A stretch of DNA of 64,000 nucleotides from Mumia sp. Pv4-285 (GTDB lineage Bacteria > Actinomycetota > Actinomycetes > Propionibacteriales > Nocardioidaceae). Positions 41,595 to 45,450 of this stretch are shown piece by piece. Location of the stretch: the NCBI RefSeq assembly GCF_041320275.1, contig NZ_CP162023.1, forward strand, positions 4,278,001-4,342,000. The letters run 5' to 3'. The position numbers were made by a program, and so were the translations under genes. The notes under the pieces are model-generated. The model made no database searches and was not told where the DNA came from. It saw only the letters and a list, made by a program, of their open reading frames with translations. The stretch's first letter is position 1. Each line of letters starts with the position of its first letter.

Positions 41595-41626
41595 CCGCGA
41601 GTCGCCCCGGCCCGACCGCGAGTCAC
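41592..41626. repeat. 35-bp dispersed repeat, copy 1 (overlaps two stop codons)
   Basis: Contains two TGACCGCGAGTC-like units separated by GCCCCGGCC. The first three bases are the stop of the EEP gene, and TCA at 41623-41625 is the stop of the convergent anthranilate synthase. 32 of 35 positions match the reverse complement of 49385-49419. Confidence 0.9.
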
Positions 41627-43515
41627 GCCAGGAGCTCGGCCACCATCTCGCCGATCAGGCGGTCGCCGTGCTGGGTCAGGATCGACTCGGCGTGGAACTG
41701 GATCCCGCGGTAGCCCGGCCCGGCCACCGTGTGCACGTCTCCCGACGCGGCGTCGGTCTCGATGCTCACGCCCTCGGGAAGCCCCGCCGACGGCTCGCGC
41801 GCCACGAAGGTGTTGTAGAAGCCGACCGTCTCCGTCCGCCCGCGCAGCGGGAGCACCGACTGCGTCCCCTGGAACACGATGTCCTTGTAGACGAGGTCGA
41901 GCCCGAGCGCACCGCACAGGACCTGGTGACCGAGACAGACGGCGAGGAACGGCGTACGCGAGCCGCGGAGGTCGTCGACGGCACGGCGTACGGCAGCGAT
42001 CTTCGGGTCGTCGAGCTCGCGCGGGTCTCCCGGACCGGGTCCGACCACGACCAGGTCGTATCCGGCGTACGTCTCGGGGCCGGCGTAGGCCTCGTGGCGT
42101 ACGACGTCGGCACTGATCCCGAGCACTCCGAGCACGTGCGACAGCATGTTGACGAAGTCGTCCTCGTTGTCGAGGATCAGCGCGCGCTTGCCCGCGAGCG
42201 AGGCCGCCGGCGCCGTACCCGCCTGGTCCGACAGCCAGAACTGGCTCAGACGCTGGTTGCGCGACCCGAGTGCGATGAGCACCTCGTCGTCGTGCGCGAA
42301 CGCGTCGAACCCTGCGGTCGGTGCCGGTGCGGCGGGGACCAGTCCGAACGCGCTCAGCACCCCCGCCGCCTTCGCGTGCGTCTCCGCCGTCTCGTGGTGC
42401 GGGTCGGAGTCGCGCACCAGGGTCGCCCCCGCCGTCACCTTCAGGTTGCCGTCGAGGTCGACGTCGGCGGTCCGGATCAGGATCGGCGAGTCGGCCGTCG
42501 GCTCGCCGTCGGCGTCCCGGCCGATGAGTGCCGCCGCCGCCGAGTAGTAGCCGCGCCCCTCGGCCTCGTACTTCTTGATCAGCCGGCAGGCGTTCTCCAC
42601 CGGGCTTCCCGTGACGGTGGCCGCGAACATCGAGTCGCGCAGCACCTCGCGCACGTCACGGTGCGTCCGGCCGGCGAGGAGGTACTCGGTGTGGACGAGG
42701 TGCGTCATCGGCTTGAGGTACGGCCCGAGAACCATGCCGCCCTCGCTGCAGATGTCGCACATCATCTTGAGCTCCTCGTCGACGACCATGAAGAGCTCGT
42801 AGATCTCCTTCTCGTCGTCGAGGAAGCGCAGCAGCTCGCGCTTGCGGTCGGCCTGGGTCTCGAGCCCGCGGAGCCGGAAGGTGCCGGAGATCGGGTTCAT
42901 CCGGACCTGGCCCGCGTCGACGCTCACGTGCCGCTCGGGGCTCGCACCGATCAGGTAGCGCTCGCCGGTGAAGATCAGGAACGTCCAGTGCGCACCGCGC
43001 TCGCGCTCGAGCAGCCGGCGCAGCACCGTCAGGGCTCCGGTCGGCCCCCAGTCCGCCAGCCGCGCCCGGTAGTGACGGCCGATCACGAGGTTCGCACCCT
43101 CGCCCTGGCCGATCTCGGAGTCGATCACGGTGCGGACCATCGCCGCGTACGTCTCGTCGTCGGTCTCGAACCCGCCACGGTCGTCGAGCGCGACCTCTCC
43201 GTCGGGCAGCGCGGCGAGCAGCTCGTCCAGCCCGACCTCGACCGACGTCTCCGCAGCGATCACCGACAGCGGCGTGCCGTCGTCGTGGGCGTCGAAGCCG
43301 CGCTCGCGCACCTGGCGGTACGGGACGAGGACGAGGTTGTCGTACGAAGGGGAGGCCTTCGCTCCCGCCGGCGGAGCCACGGCTGGGGCGAGAGGCACGT
43401 CGAGCAGCGAGTCCACGTCGGTGCGGGTGCCGCCGAGGAGAAGCACACGGTCGGAGTCGCGCACGCGGATGATCGCGTACGCGGGAAGGGTGAGCAGATG
43501 CTCGAGAGCGTTCAT
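41623..43515 (-). CDS. trpEG: Fused anthranilate (or ADIC) synthase, chorismate-binding plus glutamine amidotransferase
   Basis: 630-residue fusion converting chorismate with glutamine-derived ammonia. The N-terminal chorismate-binding domain (about 1-430) contains SPERHVSVDAGQVRMNPISGTFRLRG, DEELKMMCDICSEGG, YLKPMTHLVHTEYLLAGRT and ATVTGSPVENACRLI. The C-terminal class-I amidotransferase (about 440-630) has VVVGPGPGDPREL, catalytic Cys in AVCLGHQVLCGALG and the terminal IQFHAES with His and Glu. Overall sequence looks like PhzE (phenazine ADIC synthase) and like fused TrpEG of actinobacteria. The upstream Trp-codon leader peptide favours tryptophan synthesis; no phz genes are nearby. GAGGAC supports ATG at 43515. 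Confidence 0.88.
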   Translation of the reverse strand: MNALEHLLTLPAYAIIRVRDSDRVLLLGGTRTDVDSLLDVPLAPAVAPPAGAKASPSYDNLVLVPYRQVRERGFDAHDDGTPLSVIAAETSVEVGLDELLAALPDGEVALDDRGGFETDDETYAAMVRTVIDSEIGQGEGANLVIGRHYRARLADWGPTGALTVLRRLLERERGAHWTFLIFTGERYLIGASPERHVSVDAGQVRMNPISGTFRLRGLETQADRKRELLRFLDDEKEIYELFMVVDEELKMMCDICSEGGMVLGPYLKPMTHLVHTEYLLAGRTHRDVREVLRDSMFAATVTGSPVENACRLIKKYEAEGRGYYSAAAALIGRDADGEPTADSPILIRTADVDLDGNLKVTAGATLVRDSDPHHETAETHAKAAGVLSAFGLVPAAPAPTAGFDAFAHDDEVLIALGSRNQRLSQFWLSDQAGTAPAASLAGKRALILDNEDDFVNMLSHVLGVLGISADVVRHEAYAGPETYAGYDLVVVGPGPGDPRELDDPKIAAVRRAVDDLRGSRTPFLAVCLGHQVLCGALGLDLVYKDIVFQGTQSVLPLRGRTETVGFYNTFVAREPSAGLPEGVSIETDAASGDVHTVAGPGYRGIQFHAESILTQHGDRLIGEMVAELLA

Positions 43516-43601
43516 CGTCGGTCCTCGTACGGGTTCGTCGGCCGACGCGATCTCCAGACGCGGCCGAGGAGGCGGGGTCTGGGAAACAGCACGAGACGCC
43601 A
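43516..43601 (-). promoter_or_regulatory. Leader region with alternative hairpins (trp attenuator candidate)
   Basis: Transcript region between leader peptide and structural gene. A hairpin CGCCACCT-CT-AGGTGGCG (43597-43614) overlaps the last leader codons and competes with the self-pairing GGTGGCGCCACC formed over the Trp codons. Further down, CCAGAC pairs with GTCTGG, and CGTCGGCCGACG lies close to the Shine-Dalgarno. Ribosome stalling at the Trp codons could choose between these folds. I cannot tell transcription from translation attenuation. Confidence 0.6.
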
Positions 43602-43602
43602 C

Positions 43603-43644
43603 CTAGAGGTGGCGCCACCAACCAAGCGTGGTCCGTGCGGTCAT
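43603..43644 (-). CDS. trpL: trp leader peptide MTARTTLGWWRHL
   Basis: 14-codon reading frame whose product has two adjacent Trp residues (codons 9 and 10, at 43615-43620) followed by Arg-His-Leu and a TAG stop, 87 nt before the trpEG-like start. The start is an ATG with TACAGT 7 nt upstream, so the transcript would begin at the leader ATG. Short peptides with tandem codons for the end product are the hallmark of ribosome-mediated attenuation, known for trp genes of Corynebacterium and Streptomyces. Trp is rare, so WW in a 13-residue frame at this place is unlikely by chance. Confidence 0.82.
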   Translation of the reverse strand: MTARTTLGWWRHL

Positions 43645-43651
43645 GGGCGCG

Positions 43652-43657
43652 ACTGTA
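43652..43657 (-). promoter_or_regulatory. -10 hexamer TACAGT of the trp leader
   Basis: TACAGT on the minus strand ends 7 nt before the leader-peptide ATG at 43644. Confidence 0.5.
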
Positions 43658-43669
43658 GCGCACGCGCGC

Positions 43670-44800
43670 TCACAGCGACGCGGCACCGTTCACCGGGGTG
43701 ACGGGCGCCGCGAAGCGCCAATGCGCGGCGAGCAGCGCGTCGATCGCCGCGAGCCCGTCCGCGACGCGCTGCTCGAGCGACCCCTTGAGCACGACCGTCG
43801 GTCGTCCGCTGGCTTCCAGGGCCTCGACGAACCGGCCTGTCATCCAGTCACGGATCCCTTCGCCGTCGCGCAGGCCGTCCTGCACGAAAGGGACGCCCTC
43901 GGGGTCGGTGAGGAGGTAGAGCGGGTGGTGGCGGGCAAGATCCTCCACCGCCGCCGACCGGGTCCCCTCGTACCGCTCGTGCCAGATGCCGGTCGCGAAG
44001 GCGTCGGTGTCGCAGACCAGGACCGGGCCACCGAGCCGCGCGGCAGCGTCCTCGAGCGCGTTCTGCGTGCGGGCGATCGTGACGAACTCGTCGCTGCGCC
44101 ACACCAGCTCGTCCATCGTGGGCGGGGCCGCGATGCCGTCGACCCCCGCCTGCGCACGCGCGGTCGCGAGCTTCTCGACGGTGGCGTCGCGACCGTGCTC
44201 GGGCACCCATCGCGTCAGGCCGTGGCTCCCACCGCGGGCGCGGAGGGCGTCGCGCAGCGCGAGGGCGACCGTGGTCGTGCCCGTCGACTCCGCACCGACG
44301 ACCACGACACGGCAGGCCAATGCGCCGCGGACCGGCTCCGCCAGCGACTCCCAGTGTGTGACCGGGTCCTGACGGACCGCGGTCGCACTGATGGGAGCCA
44401 GCACGCGGTCGGGGTCGACCGCGACCGGGCGGGCGCCGAGTCGACGTGCGAGCTCCTCTCCGTACGGCTCCGAGCTGAAGACCGCGGTGACCGGCTCGGG
44501 GGTCACCGTCGCCGCTAGGTCGCGGAACAGGCCGACGTGCAGGTCCCAGACGTCCGGGTCCTCGTAGTCGACGGGGTGCGGATCGGTCGCACCGACGATC
44601 GCGACGCCCTCGTCGTCACGGTGCACCTCGCGCAACCAAGCCACGCGGTCGGCGACCGGGATCGACTCGGCAGGATGGTCGAGCACCAGCACCGTCACCC
44701 GGTGCGAGACGGCGGCGGCGGTGCGGATCAGCAGGTGGTGGCCCGCGTGCGGCGGGTAGAACTTGCCGATGATGAGGCCGTGCGGCGTGCGCACGTTCAT
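43670..44800 (-). CDS. nadR: NadR-like NMN adenylyltransferase / ribosylnicotinamide kinase
   Basis: 376-residue bifunctional NAD-salvage enzyme. The N-terminal nucleotidyltransferase (about 1-165) has GKFYPPHAGHH with the HxGH motif His18-His21 and the distal ISATAVR motif. The C-terminal P-loop kinase domain (about 170-360) resembles ribosylnicotinamide kinase. Its Walker A reads GAESTGTTT, where Lys of the canonical GKS/T is replaced by Thr; this may be a family feature or mean altered kinase activity. The ATG overlaps the pnuC stop, so imported nicotinamide riboside is phosphorylated and adenylated by the next gene product. No N-terminal HTH, unlike enterobacterial NadR. Confidence 0.88.
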   Translation of the reverse strand: MNVRTPHGLIIGKFYPPHAGHHLLIRTAAAVSHRVTVLVLDHPAESIPVADRVAWLREVHRDDEGVAIVGATDPHPVDYEDPDVWDLHVGLFRDLAATVTPEPVTAVFSSEPYGEELARRLGARPVAVDPDRVLAPISATAVRQDPVTHWESLAEPVRGALACRVVVVGAESTGTTTVALALRDALRARGGSHGLTRWVPEHGRDATVEKLATARAQAGVDGIAAPPTMDELVWRSDEFVTIARTQNALEDAAARLGGPVLVCDTDAFATGIWHERYEGTRSAAVEDLARHHPLYLLTDPEGVPFVQDGLRDGEGIRDWMTGRFVEALEASGRPTVVLKGSLEQRVADGLAAIDALLAAHWRFAAPVTPVNGAASL

Positions 44801-45450
44801 GCGGCCACCACCTCGGCCACCGGAGCCTCCTGCCGCACGAGCGCGCGACGCCAGGCGATCAGGCCGCGGATGCAGATGATCCCGTACACGAGGTACAGCA
44901 GCGCGATCAGCGGGAGGCCGCGGCTGAGGAACAGCGGCACCGAGACGACGTCGACCGCGATCCACACCCACCACGACTCGACAAGCTTCCTGGCCTGCCC
45001 GTACGTCGCGACGAGGCTGAGGGCCAGCGCCAGGCTGTCCCAGAACGGCACCGGCGAGTCGGTGAAGTGCCGGAGCCAGGCGAAGCTCGCGCCCAGGAGG
45101 AGGACGCCCGCGACGGCGAGCCCGACCCACTCGCGCCGGGTCGTCCGGCGGACGGGCTCCTGGTCCCCGTCGCGCCCTCCGCCGGTGCCGCGGGCCCAGA
45201 CCGTCCAGCCGTAGACCCCGAGAGCGAAGAAGACGATCTGCAGCACACCGTCGGCGTACAGCTTGGCGTCCATGAACACCACGAGCAGGAAGACGTTGTT
45301 GGCGAGGCCGACCGGGAAGTTCCAGATGACCTCGCGCGAGACCCACCACACGCAGAGGACACCGGTGACCGCGCCGATCACCTCGGCCCACGAGAACGGC
45401 TCGCCCCACGCCGTGAAGGCCGGTTCGAAGAAGAGCTCCATCGTCTCCAT
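44797..45450 (-). CDS. pnuC: Nicotinamide riboside transporter PnuC
   Basis: 217-residue membrane protein with about seven helices. The signature SREVIWNFPVGLANNVFLLVVF (near residues 38-60), GVYGWTVW and the late ESWWVWIAVDVVSVPLFL are characteristic of PnuC, which moves nicotinamide riboside across the membrane by facilitated diffusion driven by downstream phosphorylation. First gene of pnuC-nadR. Start METMELFF (45450) chosen; MELFF at 45441 is also possible. Preceded by a long dyad that probably binds an NAD-related repressor. Confidence 0.93.
   Translation of the reverse strand: METMELFFEPAFTAWGEPFSWAEVIGAVTGVLCVWWVSREVIWNFPVGLANNVFLLVVFMDAKLYADGVLQIVFFALGVYGWTVWARGTGGGRDGDQEPVRRTTRREWVGLAVAGVLLLGASFAWLRHFTDSPVPFWDSLALALSLVATYGQARKLVESWWVWIAVDVVSVPLFLSRGLPLIALLYLVYGIICIRGLIAWRRALVRQEAPVAEVVAA

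Follow-up and report, generated by a model that had tools for sequence, protein, structure and literature searches.

A short reading frame with two adjacent Trp codons, encoded on the minus strand of Mumia sp. Pv4-285 upstream of a fused TrpE-TrpG-like gene, is best explained as the leader of a tryptophan-responsive, ribosome-mediated attenuator, the leader itself being predicted to be leaderless (probability approximately 0.9). This reading draws on the retention of both the tandem Trp codons (WW) and the spacing of their −10 box in related genomes, on covariation of the hairpins that follow, on the likely identity of the downstream gene as an anthranilate synthase, and on a published counterpart in Streptomyces lividans; together these support the attenuation that a sequence-only reading of the window (the whole stretch of 64,000 nucleotides analyzed here) had proposed.

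Leader peptide and promoter

The leader, its promoter and the gene that follows are positioned in the window thus:

43603..43644, minus strand: leader ORF MTARTTLGWWRHL plus stop codon, predicted to be leaderless with the 5′ end at or near 43644
43652..43657, minus strand: −10 box TACAGT of the leader promoter, with a 7-nt spacer to the leader ATG
43615..43620, minus strand: tandem Trp codons UGGUGG, the putative sensor (codons 9 and 10, with the stop three codons on)
41623..43515, minus strand: fused TrpE-TrpG-like putative anthranilate synthase of 630 aa (Chorismate_bind and GATase, from domain matches)

The frame comprises 14 codons including the stop (ATG at 43644; TAG at 43605-43603 in minus-strand reading), and ends 87 nt before the ATG of the structural gene (43515), which is preceded by a GAGGA box (43526-43522); this arrangement of a Trp-Trp frame ahead of a fused chorismate-binding/amidotransferase gene, as originally described, can be read directly from the minus strand. 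The claim that the leader has its own TACAGT −10 box needs some qualification: the box is present and its spacing is conserved, but a search for a sigma-70-type promoter found no recognizable −35 element at the leader promoter, and the promoter call therefore rests on the −10 box and its conservation. The 7-nt spacer agrees with the placement expected of leaders of the S. lividans trpL1 kind, approximately 6-8 nt before the leader start, and a leaderless start is predicted from this spacing: the mRNA would start at, or immediately beside, the leader ATG, and loading of ribosomes would need no Shine-Dalgarno site. Immediately upstream on the same strand are nadR-like and pnuC-like genes (window positions 43670-45450), the stop codon of the nadR-like gene being 12 nt before the leader −10 box.

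Identity of the structural gene

The structural protein combines a chorismate-binding domain with a class-I amidotransferase domain, and its best PDB match by sequence is 3r74, which we take to be a phenazine enzyme and which is the likely basis of the label “PhzE-like” given in the sequence-only reading. That label is borne out as a description of sequence, but as a statement of function it is probably misleading. Three chorismate-binding enzymes are encoded in the 4.65-Mb chromosome. The second, of 432 aa, exceeds the curated cut-off of TIGR00543 (isochorismate synthase); the third (L002:1021-3684) is a single 887-aa frame with chorismate-binding, class-IV aminotransferase and amidotransferase domains, for which the best NCBIfam match is aminodeoxychorismate synthase at just under the cut-off (364 vs. 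383 bits), and which is likely a PabB-PabC-PabA fusion. Because the other two appear to be an isochorismate synthase and a PabB-PabC-PabA fusion, and because trpB is present in the genome (above its cut-off), the window gene is probably the likeliest anthranilate synthase of the three. Counting against this assignment, the PabB-PabC-PabA-like fusion outscores the window protein with several anthranilate synthase models (PRK13566: 276.5 vs. 163 bits), and among the matches listed the window protein reaches no NCBIfam cut-off. A role in phenazine synthesis was considered and set aside, given trpB and the lack of a likelier anthranilate synthase in the genome. Overall, the analysis argues for naming the gene an anthranilate synthase, in which case the tandem codons of the leader specify the amino acid that the downstream gene would serve to make. 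Among named relatives, the closest found is Mumia quercus, with a structural protein that is 87% identical.

Conservation in Mumia and Aeromicrobium

Homologs of the structural gene were identified in 335 of 341 genomes of the family, and 170 upstream regions were examined, comprising homolog loci, the window and 36 further fetched stretches; left out among the 335 genomes were Aeromicrobium G084, genera g2, g3 and g25, and many g7 genomes. TGGTGG in frame with a start codon and with TANNNT 5-9 nt upstream of it was found in 61 of the 170 regions, or 59 without two copies of the window (the 170 hold the window three times, as itself, L003 and L004, and other genomes twice; L003 and L004 were dropped from the 59). 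Both the 59 regions with a leader and the 108 classed as without one still contain duplicate genomes, and the unique leader segments number 48. By genome, the leader is present in all six Mumia (that of the window included), in 42 of the 47 Aeromicrobium examined (genus g20, a name drawn from named loci), and in the single genome of a third genus (G010).

The box lies at a spacer of 6 nt in 44 of the 59 leader regions and 7 nt in the other 15, a position within 5-9 nt having been a search criterion. Start codons are ATG (51) or GTG (8), and the distance from WW to the stop is three codons in 54 of the 59; apart from WW the peptide varies, and the −10 spacing is retained as well. The Aeromicrobium regions without the leader include L120, L125, L127 and L155, in which it is absent, and L158, where the frame MTVARTQLWRHQ has a single Trp codon and similar hairpin sequences are kept, perhaps as a decaying attenuator. 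When the covariance model R1 was applied to the six Mumia genomes, each gave one strong match, at this site, all other matches being weak (E approximately 0.05 or more). The sequence-only reading had suggested a search for conserved Trp codons among homologs as a check; in Mumia and in most of the Aeromicrobium examined WW is kept, and the hairpins covary.

These data bear on two explanations that involve no sensing of tryptophan. That the leader is a chance reading frame without function has its short length to recommend it and nothing else, and we regard it as practically negligible: when the upstream regions of the 59 leaders were dinucleotide-shuffled, a frame with every feature of the pattern (a start codon with TANNNT 5-9 nt upstream, TGGTGG in frame, then a stop) turned up in 3 of 2360 shuffles, and the conservation of WW and hairpins across genera, together with the covariation described below, makes such a coincidence very unlikely. 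Alternatively, the leader might only feed ribosomes to the structural gene by reinitiation, as has been proposed for actinobacterial leader genes in the available text of PMC4833913. That proposal needs a gap of approximately 12 nt, however, whereas 87 nt separate leader and gene in the window and the 59 regions have 81-136 nt up to the extrapolated start, and reinitiation leaves unexplained the invariant WW, its near-fixed distance to the stop and the covarying hairpins; we therefore consider it very improbable.

Helices of the leader transcript

The RNA downstream of the Trp codons can form a chain of helices from the following elements:

43608..43613, minus strand: arm 1, GCCACC (from the alignment), predicted to be masked by a ribosome that stalls on UGGUGG
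43594..43603, minus strand: arm 2, GGTGGCGTCT, overlapping the stop codon, partner of arm 1 or arm 3
43571..43580, minus strand: arm 3, AGACCCCGCC, putative antiterminator partner of arm 2, weak against shuffles
43577..43582, minus strand: 5′ strand of helix 3:4, CCAGAC (from alignment and covariation)
43554..43559, minus strand: 3′ strand of helix 3:4 (arm 4), GTCTGG, without a T-rich tail in Mumia

The 48 unique leader segments were aligned from WW to approximately 8 nt past helix 3:4. Helix 1:2 joins the bases after WW, conserved as CGCCACC in the alignment, to the stop-codon region and the bases beyond it. Covariation is strong in both 1:2 and 3:4: across their 13 pairs, 93.6% of alignment cells are paired (83.2% in shuffles), 51 cells have changed on both sides (16.2 in shuffles), and sliding one strand against the other reduces pairing to 32-43%. 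The middle pair of helix 1:2 illustrates this, being A-U in 22 of the 48 segments, U-A in 17, G-U in seven, G-C in one and unpaired in one.

The antiterminator 2:3 is the weaker link, less well supported than 1:2 and 3:4. Over the whole set, arm 2 fits the arm 3 of its own sequence better than permuted ones (fit 207 vs. 198.3, sd 1.8, reached in 0 of 5000 permutations, in a test that ignores relatedness), and in a GGAGG group of sequences the middle pair of 2:3 is often A-C. Mutually exclusive helices are thus placed where a stalling or stopping ribosome could choose between them, 1:2 and 3:4 being supported by covariation and 2:3, less firmly, by permutation and the truncated folding below. 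The sequence-only reading had described one pair of mutually exclusive hairpins with the Trp codons inside one arm. The exclusion holds, but for three helices (1:2, 2:3 and 3:4), each of which excludes its neighbors; and UGGUGG lies at, and just 5′ of, arm 1: when the window sequence is folded, the last two bases of the second UGG take part in the foot of hairpin 1:2, while the first UGG pairs with earlier leader bases.

Proposed switch and folding tests

We propose that, when Trp-tRNA is sufficient, the ribosome would reach the stop codon, which touches arm 2, and would cover this arm, allowing helix 3:4 to form and turning the gene off. When Trp-tRNA is short, the ribosome would instead stall at UGG UGG and cover arm 1; arm 2 could then pair with arm 3 before arm 4 has been made, so that 3:4 would be prevented or delayed and the gene would be on.

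With transcripts cut before arm 4, P(2:3) exceeded 0.5 in 47 of the 48 leaders when the stalled ribosome was modeled over arm 1, as a mask of 13 nt from the first UGG, and in nine of 48 without it; with the ribosome at the stop, P(2:3) is necessarily 0, arm 2 being masked in that state. Under equilibrium folding, with masked ribosomes, of leaders to approximately 8 nt past 3:4, stalling displaced 3:4 in 0 of 48, and when folding was extended into the structural gene it lowered P(3:4) by more than 0.2 in three of 48 (L008, L039 and L116, the window not included). Because stalling seldom displaces 3:4 at equilibrium, the model relies on co-transcriptional kinetics. Moreover, folding energy is no evidence for 2:3, since shuffled versions of the arm-3 region pair nearly as stably (38% of shuffles on average, with two of 48 sequences below 5%). 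The case for an attenuator rests on conservation of the leader and covariation of 1:2 and 3:4, and 2:3 must act during transcription.

Output stage in Mumia

The “off” state in Mumia could correspond to release of RNA polymerase, to action of Rho, or to blocked translation via a hairpin beside the start codon. Three further elements are relevant to the last of these:

43561..43567, minus strand: TCGGCCG inside helix 3:4, possible alternative partner of segment 5, without covariation
43538..43547, minus strand: segment 5, CGTCGGCCGA, possible partner of TCGGCCG (helix 4:5) or of the flank of the start codon (hairpin 5:6)
43516..43524, minus strand: segment 6, GGACCGACG, of hairpin 5:6, overlapping the Shine-Dalgarno box and abutting the ATG

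We lean slightly toward a transcriptional output in Mumia, as presumably in Aeromicrobium, in which helix 3:4 would stop transcription without a U-tract or with the help of Rho. Helix 3:4 is common to both genera, and is followed in Aeromicrobium by T-rich tails (3-8 T in 12 nt, mean 5.0, in 41 sequences, L013 excluded); published actinobacterial trp attenuators are likewise terminators with poly-U tracts, as described in excerpts of PMC1262725. Against this, T-rich tails are missing after 3:4 in all six Mumia (1-3 T in 12 nt, mean 1.7; two in the window), and the window has neither the U-tract that classically defines such a terminator nor any site found to resemble one.

The missing tail, together with the hairpin beside the start codon, indicates that the Mumia output may instead be translational: stalling would favor 2:3 and 4:5 and so free the start site, and without stalling 3:4 and 5:6 would form. 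We hold this only tentatively, as a possible but rather doubtful reading that is based on six related sequences. Hairpin 5:6 is formed by CGTCGG, which can pair with CCGACG directly before the structural-gene ATG, and compared with shuffles it is stable in Mumia (mean z −2.25, n = 6) and not in Aeromicrobium (0.21, n = 40; L013 and L116 were excluded from this test and from the accessibility, duplex and truncated-relay tests below). Taken individually, however, it is insignificant in the window, where 15 of 100 shuffles reach the same stability, and in L005 (32 of 100), and the fold of L009 is a different one. Since CGGCCG occurs twice, segment 5 can also be paired by the 3:4 region, but both copies are unchanged in the six Mumia, so that 4:5 is without covariation. 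Pairing between the half of helix 3:4 and the downstream region gave a mean z of −1.12 over 46 sequences, with 17 below −1.5; this duplex test was discarded as proof of 4:5, the window itself having a z of 0.14.

The truncated-relay test also speaks for a translational output: in transcripts ending before the start codon, stalling lowers P(3:4) in all six Mumia, to 0.00-0.04 at some length. Averaged over lengths, P(3:4) under stalling is 0.10-0.71, vs. 0.73-0.95 with shuffled downstream sequence, and 63 of 900 length-matched shuffles are as low. The effect depends on transcript length, however, being confined in L005 to one of seven lengths and gone at longer ones, and values as low are reached by shuffles for the window (10 of 150 by average, 35 of 150 by minimum), L005 (35 of 150 by average) or L008 (27 of 150 by minimum). 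At full length 3:4 is again better by 2-10 kcal/mol, and the start site is not clearly freed: with 2:3 (on) or 3:4 (off) forced, no consistent difference in its accessibility was found in the six Mumia (0.34-0.48 on vs. 0.28-0.54 off), and the 40 Aeromicrobium average 0.56 on and 0.60 off, with four higher and 11 lower by over 0.1. A translational relay in Mumia is thus possible from the modeling, but would have to be kinetic.

A fuller version of this reading, which we think unlikely, is that a terminator-type attenuator was rebuilt as a translational one in the Mumia lineage, with the chain 1:2, 2:3, 3:4, 4:5 and 5:6 relaying the stall signal to a start codon 129 nt from the leader start, while the rest of the family has no attenuator and a structural gene that looks leaderless. 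Were it true, one gene would exist in three regulatory states among related species. A translational output in Mumia, if real, would allow transcriptional and translational read-outs of one ribosome-stall sensor to be compared naturally between related genera.

Distribution outside the family and absence within it

R1 matches 65 of 245 genomes in the order at E up to 0.1, and strong matches (E < 1e-8) occur only in g1 and g20. R1 was also run on 394 genomes of the class, and the weak matches from order and class were judged by eye, without L217, L218 and L224. A convincing leader was seen in L209, L216, L219 and L223, and none in L208, L210-L215 and L220-L222. The leader of L209, MRRSNTQWWRRP, precedes a TrpE with its own N-terminal domain, and that of L223, a weak match in the class, precedes a TrpE-like gene; since these TrpE-type genes, which have a similar attenuator layout before them, look like another branch than the window gene, the switch seems not to be tied to one gene lineage. 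Separately, two genomes of one outside-family genus (L216 and L219) have Trp leaders (MTRLQQQWWRRL and MTRTQQQWWCRL, respectively), a −10 box and a similar hairpin layout before a predicted methyltransferase and no tryptophan gene (Pfam having been applied to the L216 protein only).

Of the 296 class genomes sampled, 109 encode a homolog of the window protein; 84 of these 109 lie outside the family, and 60 places were fetched from 59 of the 84. At 47 of the 60 there is a leader with WW or WWW whose −10 box lies 6-8 nt before the start, the box being part of the criterion. WWW leaders occur at 18 places, three of which read MFAHSTQNWWWTAHPAAH, and some outside-family leaders are, as judged from their sequences, near-copies of the published leaderless S. 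lividans trpL1.

Within the family, by contrast, a leader with WW and −10 box is present in three of the 23 genera examined and missing in 20. The sequence-only reading had held that homologs keeping the structural gene but not a Trp-rich frame would count against attenuation, and such homologs are therefore widespread; we nevertheless read their absence of a leader as probable lineage loss, because 47 of 60 outside-family regions carry such a leader and because a −10 box mostly takes its place. Specifically, in 86 of the 108 regions without a leader the structural gene has an in-frame start, near the expected position, with TANNNT 5-9 nt upstream (4.3 expected from mononucleotide shuffles; L103 was excluded because its upstream sequence is too short), whereas no −10 box directly before the structural gene was found near the expected position in any of the 59 regions with a leader. 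Where the attenuator is absent, the structural gene itself thus tends to look leaderless, and the homologs outside the family suggest that the leader is older than its absence.

Comparison with known systems

The E. coli trp leader follows the same 1:2, 2:3 and 3:4 logic, with tandem Trp codons and a terminating ribosome that covers arm 2 from the stop codon, and it has a Shine-Dalgarno site. The window leader resembles it (RF00513) in helix logic, tandem Trp codons and placement of the stop codon, but differs in being predicted to be leaderless, without such a site. Neither RF00513 nor any other Rfam family matched in the window at gathering score, and no trp family matched the leader region at a relaxed threshold.

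The closest counterpart is S. lividans trpL1, MFAHSTRNWWWTAHPAAH, encoded on a leaderless transcript before trpE (PMC8079986): in both cases a leaderless Trp leader, as predicted for the window, precedes a gene for a (here probable) anthranilate synthase, with competing hairpins. The window leader differs in having WW rather than WWW, a shorter peptide and other arm sequences, and Mumia lacks the T-rich tail. The trpE attenuator of S. venezuelae is an experimental case, as cited in PMC1262725 and PMC4833913. Tandem Trp codons also precede trpE in Corynebacterium glutamicum, where attenuation has been proposed (PMC4046766, PMC3890552); that leader is upstream of trpE in the tryptophan operon, whereas the window leader is before a fused trpE-G-like gene. 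With regard to the complementary triple gGCC-rGCy-GGCC that Seliverstov et al. (2005) describe in the hairpins of actinobacterial trp attenuators, no GGCC is seen by eye in arm 2 of the window (GGTGGCGTCT), while many Aeromicrobium arms read GGTGGCC.

Other leader RNAs are more distant. The mycobacterial Cys-rich upstream ORFs, proposed as attenuators (PMC4633059), are likewise small and rich in the relevant amino acid, but this is Cys rather than Trp, and conserved terminator hairpins were not seen for them in the excerpted account of PMC1262725. The actinobacterial LEU element and ileS T-boxes have been proposed to act at the Shine-Dalgarno box (PMC1262725). The LEU element is a proposed pseudoknot with Leu codons, and has only the idea of a sequestering helix in common with Mumia. 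T-boxes, for their part, read tRNA directly.

Leaderless Trp-codon attenuators in Actinobacteria are therefore of a kind already known. The literature matches listed included no paper naming Mumia, and for Trp leader peptides of Aeromicrobium yielded only a survey of soil actinobacteria, seen as title and abstract. As far as searched, three points appear new: the leader is documented in Mumia and Aeromicrobium, its absence is linked to a leaderless-looking structural gene, and the output may have changed in Mumia. The present work documents with covariation a compact Trp attenuator, predicted to be leaderless, that in its window version is unmatched by Rfam, together with the state that mostly replaces it, a −10 box directly before the structural gene.
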